45,135 bases of DNA from a virus: the IMG/VR virus record IMGVR_UViG_3300042731_008294, positions 1 through 45,135 of that record; one strand, written 5' to 3'. This document shows, piece by piece, positions 7,325 to 45,135 of the stretch (positions within the stretch are counted from its first letter, which is position 1; each line of letters starts with the position of its first letter). The notes beneath the pieces were generated by a model. That model did not search any database. It was given only the letters and a program-made list of their open reading frames with translations, and was not told where the DNA came from. The position numbers and the translations under genes were made by a program.

Positions 7325-7341
7325 AGTAAATCTCCTTTCTT

Positions 7342-7417
7342 TAGGTGATTCTGACACCCAAAATGTAAAAATTTCTTCTAAAAAAATTTTGACTTAGCTT
7401 TTTAAAATCGGTTTTTC
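7342..7417 (-). repeat. Copy A of a 76-bp direct repeat
   Basis: This stretch is identical at 70 of 76 positions to 23565-23640, in the same orientation. It spans the last seven codons and stop of the GT4 gene (7394-8656) and ends just before the SD of the ClpP-like gene. It contains an AT-rich self-complementary part (AAATTT...AAATTT) and, in this copy only, a short GGTG/CACC stem. It could be a leader, a weak terminator/promoter unit, or the scar of a duplicated junction. Confidence 0.85.
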
Positions 7418-8656
7418 TATTTTTCTCTTGAAAATATCATGAAACATATTTCTGTAATTTTCAGCTTGCTTTTCCCATGTCCAATTTTCTAATACTGTCT
7501 TTCTTGCATTGTTACCCATTCTTATTAACTCATCTCTATTTTCCTGAAAATATTTGATCTTCTTTACATACTCTCCTATTTTTCTTTCAACTATAAAGCC
7601 ATTATAACCGTCTTTAATGAATTCAGGCATATTTCCAATTTGATTTGATATTATAGGTCTTCCACATGCTGCTGCTTCCAATGCAGGATTAGGTGTACCA
7701 TCTTCAATGGAAGCAACTACAAAAACATCCATTTTATTATATATATCTGGCATTTCTTTATGTGGTATTCTATCTTTCCACGTCTTTAAATTAGTAACAC
7801 TCTTTGCATTACATGATTTTATTGCAGGTAGGATAAATTCTCTTTGTCCTTTTACAGGACATTCTTTCCCAACATGACCAACAATTAATTCACTATTTCT
7901 TTTAATTGGTTCTATAGGTCTAAATAATTCTTCATCAACACCATTGGGAATATAATATGCCTTTTTAAATCCCATATCATGAAGCTCTTTTAAAAGCATT
8001 TTACTGTTAGCATGATGGTGTCCTGCTAATCTCATTTTAGGAAATATAACATTTTTACGTCTATGAGCAGTGATTCCAGTTATTTTTTTATGTTTTGGAA
8101 CTCTATATAAAAAATCAATATATGAAAATCCATATGAAAAATAAAGATCATATGCATTCTGATTTATTCTATTGGTAGGTTGACAACCATCACCTAAGAC
8201 ACATTTAATATCAATTCTAAAATCCTCAGAAAGATATTTTTTAAGATAGTGAGATTTAATCCACCACGCCCATCCCATTACGTCACATATAAATAATATT
8301 TTTGGTTTATAATCTAATGGAACTGTGATGTGTTTCTTTTTGGTATCCATATCTTTTTGGTTTCTTGGCATACCAATATTTTTACCTTTATCTTCAGATA
8401 AACCCTTGATAATTGTCTTTTTTTTGAGTTTTGGATTAGCTTTAAGGATGGAATTTACCTTTTCTTCAAGTAAACTTCTTTCTCTTTTTGATTTATTACT
8501 ATGTTCTCTATTTTTAATCTTCCGAATAATATTTTTTATAGTAACAAGTTTTGTTTCACTTAACCTATAAATATTTTCTGCTTTATCTTCAGAAAATCCA
8601 AGGTATTCTTTAACGTCTTTTTTTAATTGTTCGATTTCTATATTATTCATAAACAA
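7394..8656 (-). CDS. GT4-family (GT-B) glycosyltransferase with helical N-terminal extension
   Basis: 420 residues. Residues 1 to about 105 form a basic, helix-rich extension (KNIIRKIKNREHSNKSKRER) not needed for catalysis. The rest is GT-B: KILFICDVMGWAWWIKS opens the acceptor domain, and PNGVDEELFRP, GHVGKECPVKGQREF, MDVFVVASIEDGTPNPAL and EAAACGRPIISNQIGNMP mark the donor domain with the EX7E-like site. It is a paralogue of the gene at 2977-4056. Its C-terminal codons (EKPILKS) lie in repeat copy A, and the same codons recur as a non-coding remnant at 23621-23640. The start overlaps the next gene by 10 bp. Confidence 0.85.
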   Translation of the reverse strand: MFMNNIEIEQLKKDVKEYLGFSEDKAENIYRLSETKLVTIKNIIRKIKNREHSNKSKRERSLLEEKVNSILKANPKLKKKTIIKGLSEDKGKNIGMPRNQKDMDTKKKHITVPLDYKPKILFICDVMGWAWWIKSHYLKKYLSEDFRIDIKCVLGDGCQPTNRINQNAYDLYFSYGFSYIDFLYRVPKHKKITGITAHRRKNVIFPKMRLAGHHHANSKMLLKELHDMGFKKAYYIPNGVDEELFRPIEPIKRNSELIVGHVGKECPVKGQREFILPAIKSCNAKSVTNLKTWKDRIPHKEMPDIYNKMDVFVVASIEDGTPNPALEAAACGRPIISNQIGNMPEFIKDGYNGFIVERKIGEYVKKIKYFQENRDELIRMGNNARKTVLENWTWEKQAENYRNMFHDIFKRKIEKPILKS

Positions 8657-10137: not shown

Positions 10138-10505
10138 CTTATATCTCCATCACCATGAATCTTTTCTCTTTTCTTTCTTGATTGTAACTTATCAACATTC
10201 ATCAAAGCTACTTGATCAAATTTCACTCCAAGATGAGAACAAAGTCTTGCCATATACCACATCATATCTCCCATCTCAAGAATAACAGCTTTCTTTCTTT
10301 CTTCTGTCATTTCGCCATAATCATCTCTGAAAAGCTTCTTTATTTTTTCTAATAATTCTCCTGTTTCCCCACCAATACCAAGAACATAATACATCCATCC
10401 CGGTTTCAGATTATCTTGAGCAGAAGTTCCAACATCTGTCTTAGCACATTCATTTTGATACTCCTTAAAAGTCATTATTCTACTTCCATCAAAATCAGTT
10501 ATCAT
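10134..10505 (-). CDS. MazG-like nucleotide pyrophosphohydrolase
   Basis: 123 residues. The all-alpha NTP-PPase signature is visible: GGETGELLEKIKKLF (Glu47, Glu50) and VILEMGDMMWYMARL (Glu77, Asp80), the acidic groups that hold magnesium, followed by NVDKLQSRKKREKIHGDGD, the usual MazG ending. These enzymes hydrolyse NTPs or dNTPs to monophosphates and pyrophosphate; in phages they are thought to adjust nucleotide pools or alarmones. The first ATG has AAGGGG 7 nt upstream and is preferred over the one ten codons in. It overlaps the recA-like gene by 11 bp. Confidence 0.85.
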   Translation of the reverse strand: MITDFDGSRIMTFKEYQNECAKTDVGTSAQDNLKPGWMYYVLGIGGETGELLEKIKKLFRDDYGEMTEERKKAVILEMGDMMWYMARLCSHLGVKFDQVALMNVDKLQSRKKREKIHGDGDIR

Positions 10506-11610
10506 CTTTTTTCCCCTTTATCTTTTTTGGTTCTTTAATTTTCTGTTCTGTTTGAATCAATTCCTCTGCTTCTTCTGCTTCCTTATTGTAAGTTGAATAA
10601 CCTGTACTTTCAAGCCAAATATCAATATCATCTAAGATTTCAGGGAATTCCTCAAGATTTTTCATTGAATTCAACTTACCTTGTCCTAATCTTTCGCCTT
10701 TATATGAATACCATGAACCTGATTTTTCAATTATTTCAGCTTCAACAGCAAGATCAAGAACACCCGCAAAAGGTCTAACACCATCAACATAATCAATCAT
10801 TACTGTTGCATCTTGGAAAGGTGGATAACCTCTATTCTTTATTGTAGTAGCTACAATACGATTTCCTATAACGGGGTCTTCCTGATTCTTTCGTTTCTCC
10901 CCACCTTCTTTATAGATAGCATATTTCCTCAATGTAACAAGTATACTTGGTAATAATCTCATTGCATTACCACCACCAATCTTTTCAGAATGATATTTAT
11001 CATTCGGGTCTCCATAATAATGACCTGTTGTGATACCAATTGAGTTTTGTGCAATACAAATATTAAGATATAATTTTAACATCTGTTTAATTTCTCTTTG
11101 CAGTAACCCTTGATCTGCTTTTGGATCACCTTCTAATGCATCATGATATGCTTTTAACCTCTGGATACCACCAACTGAATCAAGACCAATAACCAAATCT
11201 TTCTCACCTGTTTCTTTGATCTGAGCTAAAACAGGCATAATTTCATCAATCCAAGGTGTATATACATAAAATAGCTCATCCGTATTCAAGCCCCATCTCT
11301 TACAAAAATCATTATCACATCCACCTTCAGTATCTATAATAATAGCTTTTTTACCTTGTTGTTGAGCATTAACCATACATAATACCATAAAAGAACTTTT
11401 CATGGTATGTTCAGGCCCAATAATACCCATAAGATTCCTTGATTTGATACCATGTCTTAATTTACCACTTAGAATTCGATTTAGATCATAGCATGGTGTC
11501 ATGATATCAAATCTTTTTGATGCAATCTCACTTTCAGACATTATAGATGAATGAACACCTTTTACATTTTTATTAATTTTATCTTGTAAGTCCTTAAAAA
11601 AATCTGGCAT
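10495..11610 (-). CDS. uvsX: UvsX/RecA-type recombinase
   Basis: 371 residues, the usual length of the T4 UvsX group. Walker A is GPEHTMKS (65-72), with Met in place of the second Gly; T4 UvsX also lacks that Gly. The catalytic Glu is in IIIDTEGG (Glu95) and Walker B ends in LVIGLDSVGG (Asp144). A GGNAMRLLPSILVTLRK stretch corresponds to the DNA-binding loop 2 region. The C-terminus is acidic then basic (EAEEAEELIQ, KKIKGKKDD), as in RecA-like tails. It forms filaments on ssDNA and drives strand exchange in recombination-dependent replication, together with the adjacent Mre11-Rad50 protein. A strong AGGGGGA SD precedes the ATG, and a TATAAATA motif lies 19-26 nt upstream. Confidence 0.9.
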   Translation of the reverse strand: MPDFFKDLQDKINKNVKGVHSSIMSESEIASKRFDIMTPCYDLNRILSGKLRHGIKSRNLMGIIGPEHTMKSSFMVLCMVNAQQQGKKAIIIDTEGGCDNDFCKRWGLNTDELFYVYTPWIDEIMPVLAQIKETGEKDLVIGLDSVGGIQRLKAYHDALEGDPKADQGLLQREIKQMLKLYLNICIAQNSIGITTGHYYGDPNDKYHSEKIGGGNAMRLLPSILVTLRKYAIYKEGGEKRKNQEDPVIGNRIVATTIKNRGYPPFQDATVMIDYVDGVRPFAGVLDLAVEAEIIEKSGSWYSYKGERLGQGKLNSMKNLEEFPEILDDIDIWLESTGYSTYNKEAEEAEELIQTEQKIKEPKKIKGKKDDN

Positions 11611-12024: not shown

Positions 12025-15000
12025 TTAATATACTATCTCTGAAAACCCATCTTTCTTCACAGCTTTATATAGATAATCTATAAGGTCTCCATCAATCTCA
12101 TCTCGATGTGATATAACAAAAATCTTACCATCAAACTCTTTTTGTTTGAATTTTATAATTTTCATTAATTCATGAATTCCTCTTGCATCAATACTTGAGT
12201 CCAATAATTCATCGAGCACCAATAAATCAGGAAAAATACCTGCTTGACTCCTTGAAACATCAAGTAAAGATAACTGTAGAGAAATATCAATTCCCCTTCT
12301 TTCTCCCCCGGATAGATTACCATATGTGGCATTTCGAATACCCGGCCCTTTAATATCCACATCTAACCACTTATCAATCTTGACATAGAATCCATAGTTG
12401 ACCTCAGATAGATAATAGTTTACCTGTTTATTGAGGAATGGCATGATCTGTTTAATGGTATATTGTTTAATGTTCTCATCTTTTAATATATCTTTAATAG
12501 CATTTAAATAATCGGAAATATCCTTAAATTTTAATACTGTTTTACTTAAAGATTCTTTCTTGTCTTTTGCCTTTTCAATATCATCATTCTGATCATCAAT
12601 CATTTTTTGTAATGATTCTATATGTTTCTGATCTGATTTAGCTTCGGATTCAGCTAACTCTAATTCACGCTTCTTGGTACTTATGGTTGATTGTTCTCTT
12701 ACTAAATCAGTAAGCTTATTCTTAAGAGCTTCCAATTCTGTCTTATGTTTTTCACTCTTTTCATTATACTTAACCAATGCTTCCTGCATCTTCTCAATAT
12801 TAGAATTTTTTTCATCTCTAAGTTCATCAGCCTTTTCTTCTGAACCTGCTTCTTTAATTTGATTCTCAAGTCTATATAATTTTTCTTTAGCATTGTCAAG
12901 AGTTGATTTTTTATCTCTAACCGCTTTAAGATCATCCATGATAGATTGTTTTTCAGCCTTAACAGCAAACAATTTATTACTTTTTTTAGTAACATTTTTC
13001 TTGATGGTTGTTCGTTCCTTTTTATAATGATCTTGTGGGTCTTTTACATCCTGTCCACATGTTGGGCAAACACCTGTTTTTAATTGTTCGAGATTCTTTT
13101 CAACAGTTTCTAATTCTGTATTAAGTTTAACCAAATCCTTTTCTATATCTGATTGTTCAACAAATTTTTTATCAAAATCATTTGATAATCTATCTTCTTC
13201 TTTCGTTAATTTTTTTAAATTTTCTTGAATCTTCTCTATCTTTCCCGTTTCTTCTTGAATCTTCTCTATCTTTCCTTGTATTTCTTTATTTTTCTTTCTT
13301 TGTTCTTCAAGTTTTTCAATTTGCTTAATTTCCCTTTCTAAGTGACTTATTTCAGCATCTAATCTAGCTTTCCATTTCTCAAACTGAAGCGTAACCTTTT
13401 GAAATTTTTCTTCCTTTTCATTTATCTTAATATTAAGGGATTCAGTTTCTTCCTGAAGATTAGGATTTGATTCCAAAAGTCTTTCATATTCCTCTTTGAT
13501 CTCATTTACTTTTTCAATAGTTTCTTGCTTACTCTTAATCTCTAATTGAAATTTAATCTTTAATCTTTTACAAGATTCAATCTTTTCATTTATAGATTCG
13601 ATATCGGTATTGATCTTATATTCTTTATCGGATAATCCTCTTAGCTTTTCATTACATAGCTTATTCATTTCAGAATAAATTTCAAGACCAAACATTCTCT
13701 CAAGAAATACTCTTTTGTCTCCTTTTTTCATGTTCATGATACTTCCTGAGTTGTTCACATTCGAATGAATCAAGCTCATGAATGTCTTAACATCCATACC
13801 AAATATGTCTTCCTCAAACATATTTTGATAATCTTTATTGTGAGCATCTTTATCTATTAATTCACCATCTTTATAGATTTCAAGCTTATTAGGTTTAAGA
13901 CCCCTCATAATTTCATACATTGTATCATTTATTTTAAATCTAAAACAAACTGAACAATTCTTTTTATTTTTCCAATTAGGTATTTGAGACTGATTAATAT
14001 CTCTTGCAGTTTTTCCGAACAGAGCAAATGGAATAGTCTCAAGGAAGGATGATTTCCCTGCTCCATTACTCTTTCCCTTATCCATATCAATACCTGTTAC
14101 AAAATTAACCCCTTTATGAAGATTTACATCTTGCCATTTACTACCAAACGATAGAAAATTTTGAAACCCAACAGAAGCACATTCAATTTTTGTTCCTTCA
14201 GCCGATCTAATTTTAGATTCTCCTTGTCCTGCTTCCTTCATTAACTTCATAAACATAGCTTTCAATGTGATAATGTTTATATTAGTTGGAAAGGTTTTAT
14301 CATCAATATAAGAATTAACAATCTTCTCTTTAGTGTCACAAATCGTTACCTCATCTGTCTCATCATTTGTTTCAATATTGGCATAATTAATTGAATATAA
14401 AAATGGTTCACATTTCAATACCTCATCAATAATCTTCTGATTTGAATTACTTCCAAAATCCTCTGTAAATACTATTCTAACCACATTACCCTTAATTTTA
14501 TCCTCATCCATATAAAATTTTAACCAATTATCATCTGATGGTTTAGATGTTGTATTTAACTTGACAAACTTTGGGGCTTTCTCATAATTAACAAACTTGA
14601 GATGCCCCTTATCATTATCAAACACATGAAATCCTCTAATACCACCTGCATCATGAAAAGTTTGTCCATATGGAGCACCAAGATATGTTACATTATGATT
14701 ACTTGAAGGTGTATGGAAGTGTCCTGAATAAACTCTATCAAAATCTTTAAATAATGCTTTATCCAATCCATTCTTACATTTATATGAATCATTCATATGA
14801 AACCCATTAATAGCAAAATGACCCATGCAATATCTAACATTTTTAATTTGAGTTTTTGTAGGCATTTCACCCCAAGGAACAAACATTATATTATCTAATT
14901 TTGTAATCTCATCAATTACAGTAATATGATTATATTTGTTAAATAATTCTAATGTGTTAGGATGAATTGTATTTTTATAATAGCAATCATGATTGCCCAC

Positions 15001-15243
15001 TATTATATAGGTATGAAGGTCTCTTAATCCCAAAACCTTTCCAATTCTATGAGCAACATTTTGTGTTTTGGTGTTAAGACTTTTTCGATTATCAAAGAAA
15101 TCTCCTAAATGAATTATCTCTTTGATATTATTTTCAATACAATATTTTACGATGTATTTAAAAAAAGAAAGAACTATATCTAACCATGCATCAGCATCAG
15201 AATATAATCCTAAATGTGTATCTGTAACAAGTAATCTTTTCAC
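12025..15243 (-). CDS. Fused Mre11-Rad50 (gp47-gp46/SbcD-SbcC) recombination nuclease-ATPase
   Basis: 1072 residues in one uninterrupted frame. Residues 1 to about 340 are an Mre11/SbcD calcineurin-type nuclease: DTH (Asp8, His10), GDFFDNR (Asp48), GNHD (Asn84, His85), GHF (His142) and GHFH (His175, His177). From about 353 a complete Rad50/SbcC follows: Walker A GKSNGAGKSS (390-399), a long coiled coil, a CPTCGQ zinc hook near 725, a second coiled coil, the LSGGERRG signature near 978 and Walker B LLVLDELLDSS near 1010. In T4 and bacteria these are two proteins from adjacent genes. Its role is DNA end processing for recombination and recombination-dependent replication, and possibly host DNA breakdown. 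The start is GTG (15241-15243) with AAGGAG 5 nt upstream. Confidence 0.93.
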   Translation of the reverse strand: MKRLLVTDTHLGLYSDADAWLDIVLSFFKYIVKYCIENNIKEIIHLGDFFDNRKSLNTKTQNVAHRIGKVLGLRDLHTYIIVGNHDCYYKNTIHPNTLELFNKYNHITVIDEITKLDNIMFVPWGEMPTKTQIKNVRYCMGHFAINGFHMNDSYKCKNGLDKALFKDFDRVYSGHFHTPSSNHNVTYLGAPYGQTFHDAGGIRGFHVFDNDKGHLKFVNYEKAPKFVKLNTTSKPSDDNWLKFYMDEDKIKGNVVRIVFTEDFGSNSNQKIIDEVLKCEPFLYSINYANIETNDETDEVTICDTKEKIVNSYIDDKTFPTNINIITLKAMFMKLMKEAGQGESKIRSAEGTKIECASVGFQNFLSFGSKWQDVNLHKGVNFVTGIDMDKGKSNGAGKSSFLETIPFALFGKTARDINQSQIPNWKNKKNCSVCFRFKINDTMYEIMRGLKPNKLEIYKDGELIDKDAHNKDYQNMFEEDIFGMDVKTFMSLIHSNVNNSGSIMNMKKGDKRVFLERMFGLEIYSEMNKLCNEKLRGLSDKEYKINTDIESINEKIESCKRLKIKFQLEIKSKQETIEKVNEIKEEYERLLESNPNLQEETESLNIKINEKEEKFQKVTLQFEKWKARLDAEISHLEREIKQIEKLEEQRKKNKEIQGKIEKIQEETGKIEKIQENLKKLTKEEDRLSNDFDKKFVEQSDIEKDLVKLNTELETVEKNLEQLKTGVCPTCGQDVKDPQDHYKKERTTIKKNVTKKSNKLFAVKAEKQSIMDDLKAVRDKKSTLDNAKEKLYRLENQIKEAGSEEKADELRDEKNSNIEKMQEALVKYNEKSEKHKTELEALKNKLTDLVREQSTISTKKRELELAESEAKSDQKHIESLQKMIDDQNDDIEKAKDKKESLSKTVLKFKDISDYLNAIKDILKDENIKQYTIKQIMPFLNKQVNYYLSEVNYGFYVKIDKWLDVDIKGPGIRNATYGNLSGGERRGIDISLQLSLLDVSRSQAGIFPDLLVLDELLDSSIDARGIHELMKIIKFKQKEFDGKIFVISHRDEIDGDLIDYLYKAVKKDGFSEIVY

Positions 15244-15257
15244 AATTTCTCCTTTTT

Positions 15258-15734
15258 TTAAACTACTTTATCTCTTGATCTATCTTCCATTTTCTTTTTT
15301 CCTTTTTTCTTTTTCTTGTTTCCTCTAATTACCTGATAATCTATTCCACATACATCAAAATATGAAAAATCACTATCATCATAACCAACTTCAGGTATAA
15401 TAGTTTCTAAATTTTTATAACAAATATCTTTAATAGTTGAATGTTTCTTTTGTTTGGCTATATAATTAAGAAATGAATTGTGAATTATTCTTGAAAAATA
15501 CGCAAATGGATTAGGATTATCAATATTTACATCAAAATTATGCATATATTTTAAACATGTTAAAACAGCATCACATTGCATATCGTCTTTCCAAGAATAA
15601 CCTGCAAAAGACCCCCTTTCAGAATATCTTTTTGCAAGTAACAATAACATATTACCTAAATTTTCTGTCTTTCTTCCTGTTTCTTTATATATAACTATTT
15701 CTTTTAACAACTTCTCATTATTAATATAATTCAT
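15258..15734 (-). CDS. T4 gp55-like late-transcription sigma factor
   Basis: 158 residues. The central part (MLLLLAKRYSERGSFAGYSW, DDMQCDAVLTCLKYMHNFD, NPFAYFSRIIHNSFLNYIAKQKK) matches the gp55 core, a reduced sigma region 2 that binds RNA polymerase and reads TATAAATA late promoters. T4 gp55 ends in a sliding-clamp binding motif; here the tail is basic (KKKKKGKKKMED), and an acidic aromatic stretch (DDSDFSYFD) lies about 30 residues before the end. The clamp contact may therefore be moved or missing. It is the first gene after a 60-bp gap containing an extended -10 promoter, and it precedes the Mre11-Rad50 gene by 14 bp. Confidence 0.88.
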   Translation of the reverse strand: MNYINNEKLLKEIVIYKETGRKTENLGNMLLLLAKRYSERGSFAGYSWKDDMQCDAVLTCLKYMHNFDVNIDNPNPFAYFSRIIHNSFLNYIAKQKKHSTIKDICYKNLETIIPEVGYDDSDFSYFDVCGIDYQVIRGNKKKKKGKKKMEDRSRDKVV

Positions 15735-34205: not shown

Positions 34206-34571
34206 TCATTTCACTTTCAATACTCTATCAGGTTTTTTTAAATTTATTTTCTTTGATCTATCCCAAATTCTTACTTCTTGCCCCCTTACACCAATTTTTT
34301 TAACGAAAGCTCTAACATCATCTAATGTATTGACAGTTTTAGAATGTGGATTTTTATTGTCTTCAGGATCATCAACCTCAACATAATAATTATACTGTTC
34401 ATCTAAATGCTTCTTATGTTTTTCTTTTCGAGTATATCTCTTTTTATCTTTAAAATCCTGTCCTTTTGGTGGTATAGGAATTCTTAAAGCTTTCTTTTGA
34501 TCTGATTTTTCCTTATCAAAAACTCTTTTCTGTTTTCTTTTGCCTTCATCTAAAAATCTTTTAAATTTCAT
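34206..34571 (-). CDS. Very basic accessory protein with capsid-targeting-like leader, 121 aa
   Basis: Begins MKFKRFLDEGKRKQKRV, where LDE-G would fit prohead-protease cleavage. The rest is strongly basic (KKRYTRKEKHKKHLDEQ, KKINLKKPDRVLKVK) with one acidic stretch (YYVEVDDPEDNK) and a small VNTLDDVRAFVKKIGV domain. A basic internal protein could bind packaged DNA, as T4 IP proteins do. The start overlaps the CCA-enzyme gene stop by 4 bp (ATGA). Confidence 0.55.
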   Translation of the reverse strand: MKFKRFLDEGKRKQKRVFDKEKSDQKKALRIPIPPKGQDFKDKKRYTRKEKHKKHLDEQYNYYVEVDDPEDNKNPHSKTVNTLDDVRAFVKKIGVRGQEVRIWDRSKKINLKKPDRVLKVK

Positions 34572-35992
34572 TTTCCCCCTAACTGAATTATATATTTTTC
34601 TATTTCTTCTTTATCTTCTATATTATTATCCATAATCCATTCTGTAGTTTTTCTTATTATATCTCCAACTTTTTTTCCAGGTTTTAAACCTGTAAGTCTC
34701 ATTACATCCTTTCCATCCACAAGCTTTACTTGTTTATTGACTTGTTTCATACCATATTTCTCTTTAACCTTAATTGCTTTATCAACCGTCTTAGCAAAAT
34801 CTCCCTCATTATCAAATCCTCTGACTAATTCATCAGCTTTGGCAACCGAAACCAATACATCCCAATTATCATCATTAACAAGCTTTGCAATCTTGGATGG
34901 TTTCATATCAAGAATCTTATGAAACTTCATATGATTTCCAACCGCAAAAAGTAAAGCATCCCTTTCCTTATTGCTCATCTTTAGTCTGTCTGCAATAGCA
35001 TTCACAAGTTCAACCGATTTCTTAGCATGTCCAAGATATTTCGGTAGTCCTTCTTGCTGAGTTTGTGTGACTCCTTTTCCGATATCATGTAAAAGTATAG
35101 CCAAATTTTTAATCGGATTCGCAGAATCACTCTTTTTAAGTGCTTGCATAACATGACTGAATACCGTTCCACCTTTACCCCTTGTTTCAGGGTGATGTTG
35201 TAAATTTTCTCTGAACCATTTCAGGTTCATAACTTCAGGAAGTATATGCTTCAGAAGTTTAAGTTTATCTAACTGTAAAATATATTCTGCAAATTTCTCC
35301 CCACTTTGACTTGCAGATTTCATTAACTCATCTTTTATCCTTTCAGGAGCTAGACCTGCTATGTTATGGGATAACTTCTGAGCCGCTTTTTCTGTTTCCT
35401 TTTCAACATCAAATCCAAGTTTTGATGAGAACCTTGCTAACCTCATCATCCTCAAATAGTCCTCACCGAACCTCTTATATGGGTCTCCTACTGTCTTGAG
35501 AACTCTATTAACAATATCCCTTCTACCGTCAAAATAATCTATGATTTCGCCTTTAGCATTGATACCCATAGCATTGATAGTAAAATCCCTTCTCTCTACA
35601 TCCTCTTTGAACTTGCCTGTTATAGTAACTGATTCGGGTCTCCTACCATCAAAGTAAGTTCCATCATTTCTGAATTGAGCTATCTCAAAATCAAATCCAC
35701 CATGTTTAACTGTAACTATACCAAAGTCCTTTGACTTACCTATATCATAGGTCTTAAACATCTTACCCAATTCTTCCATTGGCATATTAGTAGCAATATC
35801 AACATCATGGGGTTTGAGATTCCCAAGGATGATATCCCTAACAGAACCACCAACTATATAAGCCTTATACTTTGCCCTGTTAATCTTGTTTAAGATACTC
35901 ACACCTGCTTGAAGCTCTTTATTCCTTCTCACATAATCTTGCCAATCCTTTAGAAGTTCCCTTGCTTCATTCAAATATCTTTTAAATCTCAT
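34568..35992 (-). CDS. CCA-adding enzyme/poly(A) polymerase family nucleotidyltransferase with HD domain and capsid-targeting-like leader
   Basis: 474 residues. After MRFKRYLNEA (LNE-A cleavage-type end) comes a complete class II nucleotidyltransferase: GGSVRD (48-53), DVDIAT (two Asp, 63 and 65), RRDFTINAM (134 onward) and GDPYKRFGEDYLRMMRLARF, then a FSSKLGF segment. The second half is an HD domain with ILLHDIGKG (His-Asp near 302-303) and NHMKFHKI. The family adds CCA to tRNA 3' ends or poly(A) to RNA; HD versions also have phosphatase or phosphodiesterase activity. Repair of tRNA ends cut by host defence nucleases is one attractive role. The enzyme is rare among baseplate genes and here is translationally coupled to its neighbours. 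Confidence 0.88.
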   Translation of the reverse strand: MRFKRYLNEARELLKDWQDYVRRNKELQAGVSILNKINRAKYKAYIVGGSVRDIILGNLKPHDVDIATNMPMEELGKMFKTYDIGKSKDFGIVTVKHGGFDFEIAQFRNDGTYFDGRRPESVTITGKFKEDVERRDFTINAMGINAKGEIIDYFDGRRDIVNRVLKTVGDPYKRFGEDYLRMMRLARFSSKLGFDVEKETEKAAQKLSHNIAGLAPERIKDELMKSASQSGEKFAEYILQLDKLKLLKHILPEVMNLKWFRENLQHHPETRGKGGTVFSHVMQALKKSDSANPIKNLAILLHDIGKGVTQTQQEGLPKYLGHAKKSVELVNAIADRLKMSNKERDALLFAVGNHMKFHKILDMKPSKIAKLVNDDNWDVLVSVAKADELVRGFDNEGDFAKTVDKAIKVKEKYGMKQVNKQVKLVDGKDVMRLTGLKPGKKVGDIIRKTTEWIMDNNIEDKEEIEKYIIQLGGK

Positions 35993-37983: not shown

Positions 37984-39309
37984 TTAACTTGCTTTAGCAT
38001 TACTAGTAGCTATTCCACCTATACTAAGAGTAGGAGTAGGTGGATTAGATGTAAATGTTGCTCCATCACTTGTTGATCCTGTATGAACATGAGCATTGTA
38101 CCATGTTAAAAATCTTTCATCTATTAATCTCCTAAGAGTAGCTTGATCTGCAACATTTACTGCTCCTGTTATTCCTATATTAGAACCAACTAGCTGTATG
38201 TTTCCACTTGCTGTAAGAGTTATATTCCCACTTACAGTTATACTTAGATTCCCACCTATAACATCTGTTTTATCACCTGTTACCTCATTTGCTTCATCAC
38301 CTTCATATAACCTATCTTTATCGCCTTGTATATTCTCATATTTATTTCCAGTTATATTCTCTATTTTATCTCCACTTATGTTTTCTGTCTTATCTCCACC
38401 TACAGTCTGAGTAAGGTCTCCATCTATATCTTCAATTTTATTTCCATCTATTTGAATCTGTTTATTCCCACCCACTTCAATAGTTTCATCACCTTCTACT
38501 TTTTTCTTTGAATCACCATCAATTGTTAGATTCCTTTGCTGCTTTATATGAATATTTTTACCTTCTGTTACTATCTCATATTTTTCAGCATTATTTTTTA
38601 CAACCATATTTCCATCATTATCAATTTCGATAAAACTATTAGATGGATGATAAATATTTATTCTTGCGGCATTTGGAGTAGAATCTAATTCAATAGTAAG
38701 TCCACCATGAGTAGTTATAACATAATTATGTGGATATCTTGCAGCAAAAGGAGATTGAGGTTCAGACCAATTGCCCCCCAAAGCTGTAGGAACTGAAATA
38801 TCTCTTTCATTATTCTTAGTTTCAACTAATGTTCCTGCTTTTTTTCCTCTTGATAATCTATGCCAATCAGGTTCACCCAATCTTTGTCTTGTAGGATATT
38901 GTCCATTAGGGTCTTTAAATCCATCTGTACTCATTGTATCCCTATTATCATTAGAATATGATTCCTTACTTTCGGGTATACCTGGCATTGAACCAAAATA
39001 TCTTAATTGAGTTGGATTGCCATTCTCAAAAAAACACATAACATGAGACCCCTGAAGTGGAACAGCCCAAATTCCAAATCCACTTATAGAACCCTCATTA
39101 ATTGGTAAAATTGGTTCAGCCCAAGGTAATTCGTCTGTTGGAATTCCTTCTAATTCTGTCTTAATCTTTGATGAGGTATGAATCCCATGAACCCTAACTC
39201 TAACTCTACCTGCTTTCAATGGGTCTTCATTATCCTCAACTACCCCACGAAAAATACCATCTAATCTTTCTACTTCTATCATTGAATCACTAGGTGGACT
39301 TTTAAGCAT
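37984..39309 (-). CDS. Baseplate central spike, gp5/VgrG-like, without lysozyme domain
   Basis: 441 residues. An OB-fold start (IFRGVVEDNEDPLKAGRVRV, then LPWAEPILPI and WAVPLQGSHVMCFFENGNP) is followed directly by a linker and, from about 250 to 373, a long series of octad-like VxGxxxx repeats (IDGNKIED, VGGDKTEN, ITGNKYEN) that form the gp5-type triple beta-helix needle. The C-terminus (DERFLTWYNAHVHTGS) resembles other gp5-like ends. T4 gp5 carries a lysozyme between these parts; none is seen here, so cell-wall degradation must be done elsewhere. AAGGAG precedes the ATG by 7 nt. Confidence 0.88.
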   Translation of the reverse strand: MLKSPPSDSMIEVERLDGIFRGVVEDNEDPLKAGRVRVRVHGIHTSSKIKTELEGIPTDELPWAEPILPINEGSISGFGIWAVPLQGSHVMCFFENGNPTQLRYFGSMPGIPESKESYSNDNRDTMSTDGFKDPNGQYPTRQRLGEPDWHRLSRGKKAGTLVETKNNERDISVPTALGGNWSEPQSPFAARYPHNYVITTHGGLTIELDSTPNAARINIYHPSNSFIEIDNDGNMVVKNNAEKYEIVTEGKNIHIKQQRNLTIDGDSKKKVEGDETIEVGGNKQIQIDGNKIEDIDGDLTQTVGGDKTENISGDKIENITGNKYENIQGDKDRLYEGDEANEVTGDKTDVIGGNLSITVSGNITLTASGNIQLVGSNIGITGAVNVADQATLRRLIDERFLTWYNAHVHTGSTSDGATFTSNPPTPTLSIGGIATSNAKAS

Positions 39310-39312
39310 ATC

Positions 39313-39537
39313 TTATCTCCTTTTCGGAACTTTTTTAAACTGTCTTGTTTCTTTTCCTAATCCCCTTAACAATTGTATGGTCTGTTGAAAAAGTCTAGAA
39401 GCTTCTTTTTGTGTTTTCATTCCTGCATCTTTTAATTTCTCTAGTATATCAGAATTCATTAAAAGATCATGAAGCTCATTACCTCTATCAACAGCTTGAG
39501 ATGCACTTGCTTCTCCTATATATTTTTCAAATTTCAT
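39313..39537 (-). CDS. Small internal-protein-like ORF with capsid-targeting-like leader, 74 aa
   Basis: MKFEKYIGEASASQAVD matches the leader pattern with IGE-A. After it comes a helical body (ELHDLLMNSDILEKLKDAG, EASRLFQQTIQLLRGL) and a basic tail (KKVPKRR). Its size and basic helical character are like T4 internal proteins. It is placed between the gp27-like and the gp5-like genes, 2 bp from the former. Confidence 0.55.
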   Translation of the reverse strand: MKFEKYIGEASASQAVDRGNELHDLLMNSDILEKLKDAGMKTQKEASRLFQQTIQLLRGLGKETRQFKKVPKRR

Positions 39538-39539
39538 TT

Positions 39540-40853
39540 TTATTTCCTCTTAATAATTGAAATTACACCCTTTTCTTGATATATATTTGCCTTCTTTGAT
39601 TCATATAAAATTCTACTTCCAATATCAGAATAGGCATTTCTAATCAAAACAAGTCTCTGTCTATAATAATAACTATGTCCGGGGTCAAATGAATGTGTAA
39701 TACTCTTTATTAGATATTTGCCTTTTAAAAGATCATTAAATTGCTCTCTATTTCCTTCTCCCCTTCTCCAACTAGGCCACTCTACTTTAATATGTTGACC
39801 TGCATATCTCTTTTCATGACCCTGAACAACCAAATTCATTATAAATTGCATATTATATCTTTTTGCCCAATCATTATAAGATATATTATCAATCAAATCA
39901 TAATTTGAATCTCCTACCATTGTATTAGATGATCTCACATCATCTATTTCTGGATATAAAGTTTTTCTACCTAACATAACAGTTTCATCGGCCCCATCAG
40001 AATATAAAAAATCATGATTCAAAAGCTTCTTAGTTTGAAAATCATATCCTTTCCATGTTCCCCCTCTAATTATAGGATTAGATTTTCTATCTAACCCACT
40101 AATCCACCATTCGAGAATCTCATTATCTCTATCAACCCCTGTAAAAAGATATGGGTCTTTATCAAGTGTTCTACCTATATCTCCTAATAGATAATTCATG
40201 GTAACGAGATTATGACTGAACCCATTTCTTGTATTATTAAAACAAAGATATCCTGATGTTCCAGTTTCTTTTCCCTTTGCCCTTCTCATCAACCATCTCA
40301 TTGCTACTTGTGGAGTCCAATATGGAATAATAAAATCTGTTTTATTACTACTTTCTTCATAAATAAATGGTCTCCCCCCATTTTTAAAAAATACCATATT
40401 ATTTAAAATTTCTCTCATTATCGTAGAATATTTTTCGTCTTGCCAACTTCTACTATATTTTCTCAATGTAAATGCAGCAAAAAATGTATCAACAAAATGT
40501 AATGTAATTAAATTTTCAGATTCTTCTCTAACCCCCGGCCCGACTTGAGATATTCTACTTATTTTCCATATATCAAAAACCAATTCTCTTCTTGAATTTG
40601 TATTTTTATCATCAACAGAATAAATAACAGCTATTTTTTCATTCCCTGTAAATGGAGCTAACTCCATCAAATTAAAACGATCATTAAATGTTATTGTTCC
40701 CACCATGCAGAATTTAAAAATATCCTCAATGAAATATAATTCATGTATATCAGCATTATCTAGAACAAGTGATTGATTCTCTGTGATAAACATAACCGTA
40801 AAAAGCTCTTTTCTTAAGGTTATGTTTCCTGTTTTTTGATATTCTGTTACCAT
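39540..40853 (-). CDS. Baseplate hub protein, gp27-like
   Basis: 437 residues. The position just before gp5 and the pattern (IHELYFIEDIFKFCMVGTIT, FNDRFNLMELAPFTGNEKI, LHFVDTFFAAFTLRKYSRSW, then LLKGKYLIKSITHSFDPGH) fit tube-like hub domains of the gp27 family: two beta barrels with a helical middle. In T4 a gp27 trimer holds the gp5 needle. The assignment rests on context and overall pattern more than on a signature. The start overlaps the gp53-like stop by one base. Confidence 0.7.
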   Translation of the reverse strand: MVTEYQKTGNITLRKELFTVMFITENQSLVLDNADIHELYFIEDIFKFCMVGTITFNDRFNLMELAPFTGNEKIAVIYSVDDKNTNSRRELVFDIWKISRISQVGPGVREESENLITLHFVDTFFAAFTLRKYSRSWQDEKYSTIMREILNNMVFFKNGGRPFIYEESSNKTDFIIPYWTPQVAMRWLMRRAKGKETGTSGYLCFNNTRNGFSHNLVTMNYLLGDIGRTLDKDPYLFTGVDRDNEILEWWISGLDRKSNPIIRGGTWKGYDFQTKKLLNHDFLYSDGADETVMLGRKTLYPEIDDVRSSNTMVGDSNYDLIDNISYNDWAKRYNMQFIMNLVVQGHEKRYAGQHIKVEWPSWRRGEGNREQFNDLLKGKYLIKSITHSFDPGHSYYYRQRLVLIRNAYSDIGSRILYESKKANIYQEKGVISIIKRK

Positions 40854-41239
40854 TAATCCTCTGCTATCTTCTCAAGGTCTGCTGTTAACGTATAAACATA
40901 CTCTTCTCTAAGGACAATCAATTCTTGACCTTCCTCTAATTCCTCAAATGGATTCACTGTATTATTCAATAAAGCTATAACCCACCATAAAAAAGGTGTA
41001 TTATATAAATTATATGATACATTATCCCAATATTCTCCATTGGATACTTCATATGATTGAAAGAAAGAAACATTACTGTATACGTCTTCATTTGCAACAT
41101 AACTTCTAAATATATTTAGGAATTTTGTTTCTCTGTCCTCATCCAAAAGAACATTAAATAGCCTTAAAAAGCTAAATGTATTCTTTTCAATACCTGTTAA
41201 CTCAAAGAAAGATTTCTCTGTATAAGTAGTCACTGCCAT
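40853..41239 (-). CDS. Baseplate wedge protein, gp53-like
   Basis: 128 residues. The central block (YEVSNGEYWDNVSYNLYNTP, FLWWVIALLNNTVNPFEELE, EGQELIVLREEYV) matches the N-terminal domain of T4 gp53, a LysM-like fold that clamps neighbouring wedges together. The family pattern is Y.v.dGErWD.IAy..Yg...lwWvI...N...dPf..l..G. It sits at the head of the baseplate operon with two small genes and the late promoter upstream. Confidence 0.8.
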   Translation of the reverse strand: MAVTTYTEKSFFELTGIEKNTFSFLRLFNVLLDEDRETKFLNIFRSYVANEDVYSNVSFFQSYEVSNGEYWDNVSYNLYNTPFLWWVIALLNNTVNPFEELEEGQELIVLREEYVYTLTADLEKIAED

Positions 41240-41476
41240 TTATTTATCCCATTTTATCTTAGCTATTTTTTTATCTTTCTCAAACCATTTCATTATATCT
41301 TGTTGGGTTCTTGCAGTAGTAGAACTTTCTATATCACCAAATTCATCTCTAATTTCACCATAATACATACCACTTTTATCTTGACCCATTTTTATTCTTT
41401 TCTTTCCTGCTATACCACTCCAAGAACTTTTTCCTTTAATAACTTCCCCTAAATATTTTTCTACTAAATCTTTCAT
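41240..41476 (-). CDS. Hypothetical protein, 78 aa
   Basis: Begins MKDLVEKYLGEVIKGK; KYLGE-V is a weak version of the leader seen in nearby accessory genes. The remainder has a small beta-rich part (RIKMGQDKSGMYYGEIRDEF) and a basic end (WFEKDKKIAKIKW). No family recognised. It abuts the gp53-like start. Confidence 0.5.
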   Translation of the reverse strand: MKDLVEKYLGEVIKGKSSWSGIAGKKRIKMGQDKSGMYYGEIRDEFGDIESSTTARTQQDIMKWFEKDKKIAKIKWDK

Positions 41477-41481
41477 AATTA

Positions 41482-41766
41482 TTATCTCCTTAAATCAATA
41501 GTTTTACCACAATGAGGACACTTGAACCCCTTGTTAAGTCCTATTCTACCCCTTCCACCATGAGGATGAGCAGTTGTATATGCCATTACACCATCTTCTG
41601 ATTCATTGACAATGACAACTCCCTCAAAAATTACATTACCTTCTGAATCTCTGATAAGCATTTTAGCCTTATCTAATGATTTAGCATAAACCTTATCCAT
41701 TGTTTCAACTTCCTTATATTTATCTTTTTTGTTTAGATATTTCTCCATTTGATCTGATGTTGCCAT
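41482..41766 (-). CDS. Hypothetical protein with C-terminal zinc knuckle, 94 aa
   Basis: I choose the ATG at 41766 because GAGGGGG lies about 7 nt before it, while the in-frame ATG at 41796 has no SD. The product starts MATSDQMEKYLNKKDKYKEV, has a beta-rich centre (IFEGVVIVNESEDGVMAYTT) and ends in FKCPHCGKTIDLRR, half a zinc ribbon. It is the first gene after the late promoter at 41890. Confidence 0.55.
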   Translation of the reverse strand: MATSDQMEKYLNKKDKYKEVETMDKVYAKSLDKAKMLIRDSEGNVIFEGVVIVNESEDGVMAYTTAHPHGGRGRIGLNKGFKCPHCGKTIDLRR

Positions 41767-41889
41767 TACAAACCCCCTCTTTTTTAGATTCCCCATTACA
41801 TAATGGTTTATTTTTATATCGCTTCTTTTTTTTAAGTCTCCAATTAATAAATTTCATAAGCTTAAAAATACAGATATCCTACTAAGATA

Positions 41890-41897
41890 TATTTATA
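41890..41897 (-). promoter_or_regulatory. T4-type late promoter TATAAATA heading the baseplate operon
   Basis: An exact TATAAATA between a terminator (41938-41977) and the first baseplate-operon gene (start 41766). Transcription would begin near 41883 with a leader of about 115 nt. This is the best-placed of the late motifs, since it follows a transcript end and precedes 11 kb of late structural genes. Confidence 0.65.
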
Positions 41898-41898
41898 A

Positions 41899-41952
41899 AA
41901 ATTTAGTGGATTTAAAAAAGAAAGGTAAATTTAGTGGATTAAAAAAAGAAAG
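41899..41952 (-). repeat. Two 26-bp direct repeats (28-bp period) upstream of the late promoter
   Basis: 41899-41924 and 41927-41952 match at 25 of 26 bases; each contains TCCACTAAATTT on the minus strand. They occupy exactly the space between the terminator hairpin and TATAAATA, with the second copy supplying the terminator's T tract. Two adjacent copies at a promoter could bind a regulator. Confidence 0.75.
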
Positions 41953-41977
41953 AGGGAATGGATTTCTCCACTCCCTC
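41938..41977 (-). terminator. Rho-independent terminator
   Basis: On the minus strand 41977-41952 folds into GAGGGAGTGGA-GAAA-TCCATTCCCTC, an 11-bp stem (one G-T pair) closed by a GAAA tetraloop, followed by TTTCTTTTTTT. It ends transcription of the 48-aa unit before the baseplate late promoter. Confidence 0.85.
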
Positions 41978-42003
41978 TAACTCAGAAAGGAAAAAAATTC
42001 ACA

Positions 42004-42032
42004 ACAGAGAAAAACAATGGTAAAAACTCTGT
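42004..42032 (-). other. Stem-loop in the 3' untranslated stretch of the 48-aa unit
   Basis: ACAGAG and CTCTGT pair around a 17-nt loop. The 134 bases from 42111 to 41978 contain no ORF with a ribosome site, so they form a long 3' UTR or a small RNA ending at the terminator. Confidence 0.4.
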
Positions 42033-42111
42033 CATGTTTTTGATGAAATTACGCTTTGAATTCTTATGGTATCATACGCTTATCCCATCAAAATCGTTAT
42101 AAATATGGATT

Positions 42112-42258
42112 CTATATTGTTGTAAAAATGTCCTGCTCAACCCCCGATGAAAAAATATCAGGTTCTATACCTGTATCCCAAGTTTCACCATCTTTATTTT
42201 CAAGCTCATCAGGATCAATTAAAAAATCTTCTTGATCAAAAAAATCTTCAAATTCCAT
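42112..42258 (-). CDS. Small, extremely acidic protein, 48 aa
   Basis: ATG at 42258, TAG at 42112-42114. AAAGGAG lies 7 nt upstream, one of the best SDs in the window. The product starts MEFEDFFDQEDFLIDPDELE and has 17 Asp/Glu against a single Lys, with many Phe/Ile/Leu between them. It has its own promoter with a perfect -35 and its own terminator, unlike all its neighbours. The composition fits a DNA mimic, an inhibitor of a host protein, or a short acidic coactivator (T4 gp33 is a longer example of the last). None of these can be chosen from sequence alone. Confidence 0.7.
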   Translation of the reverse strand: MEFEDFFDQEDFLIDPDELENKDGETWDTGIEPDIFSSGVEQDIFTTI

Positions 42259-42298
42259 AATAAAACTCCTTTGTTTTTTAAGTTAACATTATTTATTA

Positions 42299-42334
42299 TA
42301 TTTATACTTTATCACACCAAAAATGTATTGTCAA
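42299..42334 (-). promoter_or_regulatory. Dual promoter: sigma70-type TTGACA/TAAAGT plus TATAAATA
   Basis: On the minus strand TTGACA (42334-42329) is followed after exactly 17 bp by TAAAGT (42311-42306), and TATAAATA (42306-42299) follows immediately. The -35 overlaps the stop of the GT2 gene. The unit could therefore be read both by host holoenzyme and by the late gp55-type enzyme. Its target is the 48-aa acidic ORF. Confidence 0.7.
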
Positions 42335-43011
42335 GCATTTTTTAATAAAGGTTTAATAAAATCTTCATAAACTCTCATATATTTAATCTGATAATCTTTA
42401 TCATCTCTTGCTGATATATCATCTTTAGTGCTATGAGCTATAAACCATGCTTTAGGTTGAGGTATGCCTATGATACCCCTTCCAAAACATTTCAATAAAA
42501 ATGCATAATCTAATAATCTCTTATATTTATCATCAGTTACAAGACCAACTTCCTCAATAACCTCAGTTAAAAACATAGAATTTGAACTAATATAGTTGGA
42601 TCGAACTAACCTATTAATGTCAAATGGCCTTGCAGGGAAATTAGCATTCACATGTCCTTGAAACTGAAAAGTTGCATAACAATATCCTATTTTAGATGTT
42701 CCAGATGAATATGAAAATTCATTCAATCTATTATACAACCTATCAAGCATATTCCTTCCCATCTCTATATCCCTATCAATCATGATATAATATGGGGGAA
42801 GTTTACCAATATTCTTTTTATACCAATCTATTCCTGCTTGTGCATTTGTAGGTATATTATAGTTTCCCTCACTTGTCAACCAAAAAAAGGGAACTTTATT
42901 CCTTTTTATGGTTTTTTTAGTCAATTTACTTACCTGATGATTTGGTAATAAGGGTGTTACAACCAAAATTTCAGGGTGTCTATCATCAGCTAATTTTCTA
43001 ATTTTATTCAT
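42331..43011 (-). CDS. GT2-like glycosyltransferase, 226 aa
   Basis: A compact GT-A protein. EILVVTPLLPNHQ opens the nucleotide-binding domain, TNAQAGIDWYKKN and PPYYIMIDRDIEMGRNMLDR supply the acidic metal site (DRDIEM in the DxD position), SSNSMFLTEVIEEVGLV corresponds to the acceptor-loop segment of GT2 enzymes (..F....lr.iGg.de..), and DYAFLLKCFGRGIIGI matches ED.dl..Rl...G. It follows the poly-Ser fibre gene by 53 bp with its own promoter, so it could act on that fibre. The acceptor is not known. Confidence 0.72.
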   Translation of the reverse strand: MNKIRKLADDRHPEILVVTPLLPNHQVSKLTKKTIKRNKVPFFWLTSEGNYNIPTNAQAGIDWYKKNIGKLPPYYIMIDRDIEMGRNMLDRLYNRLNEFSYSSGTSKIGYCYATFQFQGHVNANFPARPFDINRLVRSNYISSNSMFLTEVIEEVGLVTDDKYKRLLDYAFLLKCFGRGIIGIPQPKAWFIAHSTKDDISARDDKDYQIKYMRVYEDFIKPLLKNA

Positions 43012-43019
43012 AATGACAC

Positions 43020-43048
43020 ATTATAACATATTTTTTAAAAAAAGTTAA
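43020..43048 (-). promoter_or_regulatory. Host-type promoter with extended -10 for the GT2 gene
   Basis: TTAACT (43048-43043), a 17-bp spacer, then TGTTATAAT ending at 43020. The -10 is a perfect TATAAT with the TGn extension, and the ATG is 8 nt further on, so the message would be nearly leaderless. It uses the same extended -10 form as the promoter of the gp55-like gene. Confidence 0.55.
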
Positions 43049-43064
43049 CAAAAATATTCATTTT

Positions 43065-45135
43065 TTAAGACCAACTGCCTGATACAGGAGCACTATAAGT
43101 AATCAAATTATCATCTAATGATAATCTTGTTGCATCCACCCAAGCATTCGATCTTTCTGTATTAGATATTCTTAACTCATCAACTAGACCATCATAATAT
43201 CCACCCCCACCATCTGAATTTCCTACATAAACTCTTTGAAGATTACCGCTTGAATCTTTATTCGGGTCTCTTGAATAACTATTTGAATCTGTTGAACCAT
43301 CTCTATTATATGTAACAGTATTACTTGATACATTTCTTCTCATCGCAATATAATAATATGTACCTGTACTTAAAACTAGATTACTAGAATCTTCCACATT
43401 TACACCTGAATCATATTCCCAAAATATTCTCAATCTTTCTGAGGGATCTAAAGTTAAAGAATATAAATAATTAGTTACTTTAGATTCACCACCTGCTCCA
43501 CACATCATAAAATATTGGTTATGATTTTCATCTCCATCTCTTCTTACAACCATTTCAACAGTTACATTTCCATTTATTTGAAGTTCAGAATGTATACCTG
43601 TTCTTAACCAATCTCCCGACTGACCCGGAAAATCAACACCTTTTCCTATTTTACTATCTTTAAATGCAGAATCAGAAAGACTATTAGCAGTTAAATTTCT
43701 TCCATATTTACTTTCTATAACTGAAGCTGATAAAGGAGTATTAAAATGACAAACAAATTGTAAGTTGGAATTAACCCAAACCTCAGAAGCGGGAGCCGAA
43801 CCTGTTTCTCCAATATAAGTTTCATTATCAACTTGATCATTATCATAATATAAAGTCAAAGTTGTTCCACTAGTTGGAAGTGTCTCAATATTTGTATGTA
43901 ACCATGCTTCCTCTCCTGAACCATTCCAATATTCTATCTCAACATATTTTTCATTACCTTGTTTATCTTCTATTTTTATCTTTTTACTATTCTCACCCAA
44001 TACTGTAAAAACATCTGTTACATCTGTATTAGTTATACCTGAAGAACTAGATAAATATATCATTACAGGAATATCAGAAAGTATGGATGATGATCCATTA
44101 ACAGTAAGTTCTATTGAATTATTCCAAGGAGTTACACTAAAACTACTCGAACTGCTTGATACAGAACTAGAACTTGATGATGAACTTTCGGAACTAGAAC
44201 TTGAAGATGAACTAGAACTTGAAGATTCTGAGCTTGAACTTGAAGAACTGCTTAGAGAACTAGAACTTGAACTCACTGAACTCGAACTTGAACTTGAAGA
44301 ACTGCTTAGAGAACTTGAACTTGAAGAACTGCTTAGAGAACTCGAACTTGAACTTGAACTTACTGAGCTTGAGCTTGAACTTGAAGATGAACTTGAAGAA
44401 CTTGAACTTGAAGAACTTGAACTACTTTCACCACATATAATTTCATCATAAGAATTAAACTTAAGATTATCAAAATCAAATCTATAATTAGCATTTGTTG
44501 TAATTCCTTGTCTCCATCCAAGAATTCCTATATAACAAGCAGAAGTTACCCATGTCTCTGTATTACCTATTTGTACCCAATCTCCACCACTAACAACATA
44601 TCCCGATAATTGATCTCCTGACCTCACTAACCTTAATCCACCTGATGTAACTGTAGTAGCTACATCATAAAAACCATTATTAGCACCATCATCATCATAT
44701 CTAAATCTATACTTTGGTTCACCTGAATTTTGTCTTCTAAATATTCCACCCCATTTTGTATTTTCATTTCTATCTACAGAAGTAGTTAATCCCATCATTT
44801 GATCTTGATCTACTTGACCTGAAATAGCAACAAATTTGATTTGAACATCAAAATCCCCTATAAAAGTTGAACTAAGAAGCTTCCAATGATTACCATAATA
44901 TCCATTATTTATTACAAATCTTCCTTGATTGAGACTATTTATATATGCCGAACCTTGACCATTTGTTGGATTTGCATAGAATAACTCCCATCTATGAACA
45001 TTCCAAGGATCATTCTCTGAACTTGTAAAATCATCATCAAGAATTACATAACAAGATTCACTTGAAGAACTTGAGCTTGAACTTGAAGATTCAGAACTTG
45101 AGCTTGAACTTGAAGATTCAGAACTTGAGCTTGAA
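43065..45135 (-). CDS. Poly-Ser tail fibre protein with DUF2341 and LamG C-terminus (5' end beyond window)
   Basis: The frame stays open to the right edge, so the ATG at 44798 is internal and the true start lies outside; about 690 residues are visible. Reading in: poly-Ser with Glu (45135-45055), a LamG-like domain (SCYVILDDDFTSS, FIGDFDVQIKF, GGLRLVRSGDQL) to about 44430, a long poly-Ser tract, then WNNSIELTVNGSSSILSDIP with TLPTSGTTLTLYYDN (DUF2341) and a jellyroll LamG domain (VNSNLQFVCHFNTPLSASVI, GLVDELRISNTERS). DUF2341 plus LamG is common in large adhesins and glycan-binding proteins. It belongs to the same fibre family as the genes at 16690-27280. Confidence 0.78.
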   Translation of the reverse strand, partial: SSSSSESSSSSSSSESSSSSSSSSSESCYVILDDDFTSSENDPWNVHRWELFYANPTNGQGSAYINSLNQGRFVINNGYYGNHWKLLSSTFIGDFDVQIKFVAISGQVDQDQMMGLTTSVDRNENTKWGGIFRRQNSGEPKYRFRYDDDGANNGFYDVATTVTSGGLRLVRSGDQLSGYVVSGGDWVQIGNTETWVTSACYIGILGWRQGITTNANYRFDFDNLKFNSYDEIICGESSSSSSSSSSSSSSSSSSSSSVSSSSSSSSLSSSSSSSSLSSSSSSSSSSVSSSSSSLSSSSSSSSESSSSSSSSSSSSESSSSSSSSVSSSSSSFSVTPWNNSIELTVNGSSSILSDIPVMIYLSSSSGITNTDVTDVFTVLGENSKKIKIEDKQGNEKYVEIEYWNGSGEEAWLHTNIETLPTSGTTLTLYYDNDQVDNETYIGETGSAPASEVWVNSNLQFVCHFNTPLSASVIESKYGRNLTANSLSDSAFKDSKIGKGVDFPGQSGDWLRTGIHSELQINGNVTVEMVVRRDGDENHNQYFMMCGAGGESKVTNYLYSLTLDPSERLRIFWEYDSGVNVEDSSNLVLSTGTYYYIAMRRNVSSNTVTYNRDGSTDSNSYSRDPNKDSSGNLQRVYVGNSDGGGGYYDGLVDELRISNTERSNAWVDATRLSLDDNLITYSAPVSGSWS
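44140..44428 (-). repeat. AGTTCA-type hexanucleotide tract (poly-Ser linker)
   Basis: A 289-bp Ser-codon array with Val, Leu, Glu and Phe interruptions between the LamG-like and DUF2341 domains of the window-edge fibre. A further tract of the same type runs from 45055 off the window edge. Confidence 0.85.

Follow-up and report, generated by a model that had tools for sequence, protein, structure and literature searches.

T4 late promoters are of an 8-bp type that has no -35 element (PMC2988020). Peptides that bind the sliding clamp carry a QLxLF or Q-aliphatic-x-[L/M]-[F/L] motif (PMC11139829), and the C-termini of T4 gp43, gp55 and gp33 are clamp-binding peptides of this kind (PMC2988020). 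In T7, Ocr is an acidic early protein that mimics DNA (PMC7064336). Together with morons, these are the closest described counterparts of a locus found in a viral sequence of 45,135 nt (IMG/VR record IMGVR_UViG_3300042731_008294, analysed over its whole length and hereafter called the window), whose lineage is not represented by any cultured phage in the collections searched.

As in T4-type phages, two classes of promoter can be distinguished, TTGACA-17-extended -10 on the one hand and the 8-bp TATAAATA on the other, and a gp55-like gene is present. The difference is that here a sigma70-type unit lies inside the late baseplate cluster. With morons, this unit has in common an own promoter, a single ORF, an own terminator and a position amid late genes. 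Unlike morons, it is not sporadic: it is found in 13/13 readable close relatives, whereas the distant phage L024/G004 is without it at this site. Since all readable relatives have the unit at the same place, it behaves as a gene of the lineage. Like Ocr, its product is small, acidic and probably early; however, it is much shorter than Ocr, is predicted to be disordered and conserves motifs rather than a charge pattern. Comparative sequence analysis identifies a real and new family of small phage proteins, conserved in position, whose gene is fixed in an uncultured T4-like lineage.

Organization of the transcription unit

The unit occupies the minus strand from 42334 to 41941 (Table 1) and is headed by a promoter that can be written TTGACA-17 bp-TGATAAAGT, with matches at 10/12 hexamer positions. 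Because a consensus scan of positions 38000-45135 gave 32 promoter-like sites as against 37.7 in shuffled sequences, that is, no enrichment in this AT-rich DNA, such a motif by itself is no proof. The whole window contains a single TTGAC-17-TGnTA arrangement, and within its own upstream region the promoter has a p value of 0.007. Moreover, in 12/13 family loci an exact TTGACA stands 67-109 nt 5' of the start of the small ORF, with TA 17 nt later, the exception being L012, where no TTGACA is recognisable. The background, assessed on four of the family's contigs, is 33/497 predicted genes with TTGACA at most 120 nt upstream. The TGA stop codon of the upstream gene sits within TTGACA in the window and, overall, in 8/12 TTGACA-bearing loci, and this overlap is found behind two unrelated upstream genes. 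In L011, the Shine-Dalgarno sequence is AGGGGG. A terminator equivalent to that of the window closes the unit in 13/13 family loci.

The preliminary description of this DNA had proposed an autonomous transcription unit with a perfect TTGACA at 17-bp spacing, an AAAGGAG Shine-Dalgarno motif and a strong downstream terminator. All these elements are in place, and the conservation of promoter, terminator and acidic protein bears out the autonomy of the unit.

Table 1. Features of the small-ORF locus in the window, and hairpin chains of related contigs
Feature	Position	Strand	Basis or remark
Sigma70-type promoter TTGACA-17-TAAAGT, TGA before -10 (extended -10)	42306..42334	(-)	Sequence and promoter scan; TTGACA 42334-42329, spacer 17 nt, -10 TAAAGT 42311-42306
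TATAAATA, T4-type late-promoter-like octamer	42299..42306	(-)	Shares last base of -10
Shine-Dalgarno AAAGGAG	42266..42272	(-)	Sequence; AGGAG or longer in 12/13 relatives
48-aa acidic protein, MEFEDFFDQEDFLIDPDELENKDGETWDTGIEPDIFSSGVEQDIFTTI	42112..42258	(-)	ATG at 42258, 48 codons, TAG ending 42112; family of 13 distinct members, conserved under purifying selection
Two strong 3' UTR hairpins	42093-42038, 42036-42000	(-)	Folding
Intrinsic terminator: 12-bp stem, 4-nt loop, T tract	41941..41978	(-)	Stem 41978-41951
TATAAATA, late promoter of next operon	41890..41897	(-)	Context TATAAATA...TTAGTAGGAT, recurs in relatives
104-aa zinc-ribbon-like protein (CPHCG)	41482..41796	(-)	First gene past terminator
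Baseplate wedge protein gp53 homolog	40853..41239	(-)	Anchor of conserved locus
226-aa putative GT-A glycosyltransferase	42331..43011	(-)	Directly upstream; neighbour in 13/13 loci
Promoter of the glycosyltransferase, TTAACT-17-TG-TATAAT	43048-43020	(-)	Promoter scan
Poly-Ser adhesin-like protein, concanavalin/lectin-type domain in window	43065-44798		Beyond glycosyltransferase
gp55-like late sigma factor	15258-15734	(-)	PHROG 234, E 2e-30
Hairpin chains, ORF to terminator	L013:4913-5170, L014:5204-5445, L018:1295-1580, L020:4927-5225, L021:5065-5305, L022:5044-5338		Compensatory changes, CTAGTCA/TGACTAG stem

Conservation of the small ORF

A protein search of IMG/VR with the small protein returned one relative and a search with the neighbouring baseplate gene gp53 returned 20 loci. 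With an HMM made from three members, the ORF was detected in all close relatives with a contig extending to the site. Within the locus set, L015-L017 repeat L014 and L023 repeats L022, while L006, L019 and L025 extend too little upstream for the ORF to be scored. The family comprises 13 distinct sequences, namely the window and 12 other distinct IMG/VR contigs. The ORF is always located about 0.6-1.1 kb upstream of gp53, between this gene and a GT-A-type glycosyltransferase on its upstream side, so that the search for a conserved short ORF in related phages, suggested earlier, has a positive outcome at this very site.

The reservation that the reading frame might lack conservation is answered by two measures: dN/dS is <1 in every pair for which dS could be computed, and variation at third codon positions (0.49) is about twofold that at first and second positions (0.26 and 0.24). 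These patterns place the small ORF under purifying selection. Short ORFs are common, and an AT-rich intergenic region could hold one by chance. Here, conservation of the frame in 13 contigs together with dN/dS refutes this explanation, whose probability is negligible.

In the more distant phage L024/G004, whose gp53 is 53% identical, neither the ORF nor its neighbours are found at gp53. A weak profile match (E 0.002) designates an 87-aa ORF elsewhere in the contig (MFDDIFKDTDF...DVWHTGQAPDIWAV...SGIFDDIF), which overlaps the end of a sugar-epimerase-like gene. It retains the MFDDIF and WxTGxxPDIW motifs, with FDDIF repeated at the C-terminus, and is probably a distant homolog of the family.

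An acidic protein with conserved motifs

The 17 D+E and the single K+R of the 48-codon product agree with the counts given previously. Its net charge, -0.33 per residue, makes it the most acidic protein of the window gene set, the runner-up being at -0.12. Matches were absent from Pfam, PHROGs, PADLOC and the PDB, where the best hit, an antifreeze protein (E 0.74), was rejected. At the sensitivity used, GTDB genomes gave no match to the small protein either, and no family member was found in 50,697 annotated phage records, an E=1 match of a relative's protein being rejected; the DNA of the locus had no match in these records. No paralogs of the small protein were seen in four contigs examined.

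In the alignment, D4, F6, F11, I13, D14, P15, T29, G30, D34, F36, S38, G39, D43 and F45 are invariant. They group into an N-terminal block, D-x-F...F-x-I-D-P, a central one, E-x-[W/F]-[D/N]-T-G, and a third in which D-[I/L]-F comes twice, spaced by about nine residues; the motif series can be read as N-terminal [D/E]DxF...[D/E]FxIDP, then [W/F]DTG, D[I/L]FxSG and D[I/L]FxT. AlphaFold predicts no stable fold (pLDDT 63, pTM 0.19); with a protein of 48 aa and an alignment of 13 sequences, this is weak evidence of disorder. A PAAR-like repeat was also noticed by eye, TGSPNVFTNG in a tail-spike gene as against TGSSPDIFTSG.

The preliminary description had pointed to DNA mimicry as frequent among small acidic phage proteins and had proposed a host-takeover or anti-defence factor. 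A DNA-mimic role in anti-defence or anti-restriction would suit the most acidic and likely early product of the window. The predicted disorder, the D-[I/L]-F and [W/F]-D-T-G motifs conserved beyond charge alone, and an acidity less conserved than these motifs all speak against mimicry; no sequence relation to known DNA mimics was found in the PDB, Pfam, PHROGs or PADLOC. Neither PADLOC nor the PDB contains a relative that would suggest anti-defence, and the gene is locked in position in 13/13 readable relatives, unlike typical anti-defence genes, which are variable. We consider a DNA-mimic anti-defence or anti-restriction protein very improbable.

The short hydrophobic-acidic D-[I/L]-F motifs, carried here by a predicted disordered chain, recall clamp-binding peptides and make binding to the sliding clamp a natural guess. 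The strict clamp-binding consensus was nonetheless rejected: Gln is at position 1 in 7/26 repeats and an aliphatic residue at position 2 in 0/26, and the motifs do not resemble the C-termini of the phages' own polymerases (..KAFF, ..VRAFF) or of gp55. Mimicry of the acidic tail of SSB was discarded as well, as no matching tail was found among acidic C-termini in related contigs. A 116-aa acidic protein in G002 (128569-128919, (-); L035:8569-8919) ends in EHWTTDNKVDNELEEDVDIFTTEDDV (DVDIFTTEDDV); this echo of the family's C-terminal motif is not significant by phmmer and was regarded as coincidental.

Structure in the 3' untranslated region

In the window, the 3' UTR has a minimum free energy of -49.6 kcal/mol (z -5.76, terminator included). 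Values against shuffled sequences are -9.4 in L021, -7.1 in L012, -6.5 in L022, -5.7 in L014 and -5.4 in L009, part of which is owed to the terminator itself. An invariant CTAGTCA...TGACTAG hairpin, whose loop measures 10-41 nt, is found in 7/7 subgroup-2 contigs, and in G003 it occurs nowhere but at the family locus. Compensatory changes affect 4/26 pairs of a three-hairpin core among four sequences. A covariance model of this core, built from L018, L020, L021 and L022, matches L013 and L014 weakly at the corresponding site (E 0.02-0.09) and finds the core only at the family locus, including one reverse-strand match inside it (E 0.57). The subgroup-2 hairpin chain is a candidate for a new structured phage RNA. 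Since the model has no match in the window, the window phage does not share this RNA. By eye, the hairpin loops contain no GGA, and a Csr-type sponge was rejected.

It could be asked whether the unit exists mainly for its RNA, a stable chain of hairpins that would regulate or act as a sponge, the ORF being secondary. The very stable 3' UTRs of the window and of L009, L012, L014, L021 and L022 (z -5.4 to -9.4), the compensatory changes and the invariant stem would fit such a role. However, the hairpins are not homologous between subgroups, the 3' UTR has no Rfam match at the gathering score and the z-scores partly reflect the terminator. Moreover, L002, L004, L010 and L011 keep the ORF with short 3' UTRs that extend little past the terminator. 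As the long UTR is missing from these four relatives, the protein is the constant part, and a primary role of the RNA appears quite unlikely.

Genomic setting

An AlphaFold model of the 226-aa protein upstream (pLDDT 67, pTM 0.70; C-terminal half poor) matches in Foldseek WrtF (E 2.7e-5), TarP (9e-5) and other glycosyltransferases to 1e-4. Its gene has a sigma70-type promoter in 5/6 group-1 contigs (window, L002, L004, L009, L011). Poly-serine adhesin-like proteins are also encoded in L002, L004 and L009-L011. The adhesin and the GT-A-type glycosyltransferase with its own sigma70-type promoter possibly form a phage tail glycosylation system.

These neighbours raise the question of whether the small protein assists the glycosyltransferase, or glycosylation of the poly-Ser tail adhesin, as chaperone, activator or substrate tag. 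The enzyme gene adjoins in 13/13 loci and has the promoter just described, like the window, most group-1 contigs have the poly-Ser/lectin adhesin upstream, and the G004 homolog overlaps a sugar-epimerase-like gene. On the other hand, the small gene has its own promoter, a 101-aa ORF intervenes between it and the glycosyltransferase gene in L014, L018, L020, L021 and L022, and a close homolog of the enzyme in L061 (1802-2464) has no small ORF downstream. Such a partnership is conceivable, at rather low probability. L061, found through a GTDB match to the glycosyltransferase, is a contig of 3 kb that was assigned to the MAG of a Thermoplasmata archaeon, but it is probably of phage origin and misbinned; given its shortness and this likely misbinning, it was not retained as an indication of a Thermoplasmata host. 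In L035 (4323-5102; IMGVR_UViG_3300031111_000007), the product of a phage gene with an early-type promoter combines a signal peptide with a PEP-CTERM-like C-terminus (VPEPASMLLLGTGLIMFGSVSRKKFF), which may hint at an exosortase-bearing host.

Elsewhere in the window, two further glycosyltransferase-like genes flank a ClpP-like head maturation protease (2977-4056, 6575-7357, 7394-8656, (-)). The baseplate gene cluster contains a tRNA nucleotidyltransferase gene (34568-35992, (-); PHROG 2244, E 2.4e-75), despite which ARAGORN detects no tRNA gene in the window.

Timing of expression

The octamer TATAAATA belongs to the T4-type late class. With a gp55-like late sigma factor among the products of the window, TATAAATA sites are credible as the late promoter class of this lineage. 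In these contigs other such sites occupy intergenic gaps ahead of genes, and the one at 41897 directly follows the small-ORF terminator, ahead of the zinc-ribbon/gp53 operon. The gp55-like gene adjoins SbcC/D-like (12025-15243) and UvsX-like (10495-11610) genes.

The TTGACA-type promoter of the small ORF differs from the gp55/TATAAATA class, and is thus most simply read by host sigma70, that is, early. The unit is therefore probably expressed early, and the description of the locus as a sigma70-type, probably early unit within a late baseplate region is well supported. Expression both early and late had been proposed initially. The early part agrees with the promoter type. The late part relied on the octamer at 42306-42299, which is the least secure element of the unit: it is present in the window, but only 3/13 relatives have TATAAATA 5' of the small ORF, with 0.34 expected by chance. 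The octamer is thus not the conserved feature that would mark a T4-type late unit, and a second, late start is a possibility for the window phage rather than a feature of the lineage.

The same data bear on the idea that the protein is a small virion component, or a baseplate or tail assembly protein, made from a constitutive promoter. Synteny with gp53, retention in all readable relatives, as expected of a structural gene, and the octamer in 3/13 loci would agree with it. In contrast, the conserved promoter is of sigma70 type and the terminator stands between the small gene and the late operon, the latter being provided with a TATAAATA of its own. We regard this assignment as unlikely.

Possible function

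The reading that we prefer, although with slightly less than even confidence, is that the small protein serves early as an adaptor or decoy, a disordered peptide whose motifs engage a conserved partner. It is preferred because short motifs conserved in a predicted disordered chain have the look of short linear binding motifs. Likewise, the gp55-like factor and the TATAAATA sites elsewhere set the sigma70-type promoters apart from the late class. We infer early timing, disorder and motif-based binding from these features. A stand-alone, host-sigma70-type and probably early unit, lying amid the late baseplate genes with the terminator as insulation, would produce the 48-aa, largely disordered acidic peptide. 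Its repeated short motifs would then dock onto a conserved host or phage protein early in infection. Host takeover through binding of a conserved host machine is possible. It should, however, be noted that synteny with the glycosyltransferase and baseplate genes suits a virion-side role equally well.

A bolder proposal would unite peptide and RNA in one phage regulator, whose mRNA carries both a disordered multi-motif peptide and a stable hairpin chain. Early in infection the peptide would titrate a universally conserved machine of the host, such as RNA polymerase or the sliding clamp, via its D-[I/L]-F repeats, and the 3' RNA would act separately in trans. Its probability is slight.

Concluding remarks

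What the locus contributes is a compact family of proteins, sharply defined by its motif and without a counterpart in the libraries searched, and a portable promoter-ORF-terminator unit fixed across a whole uncultured T4-like lineage. The 3' UTR hairpins that one subgroup conserves are in turn a candidate for a new phage RNA. Because the protein is short, locked in position and motif-based, its partner could be identified by a single pull-down. Once found, this partner would tell how the lineage acts early on its host, or how it prepares the glycosylation of its tail.
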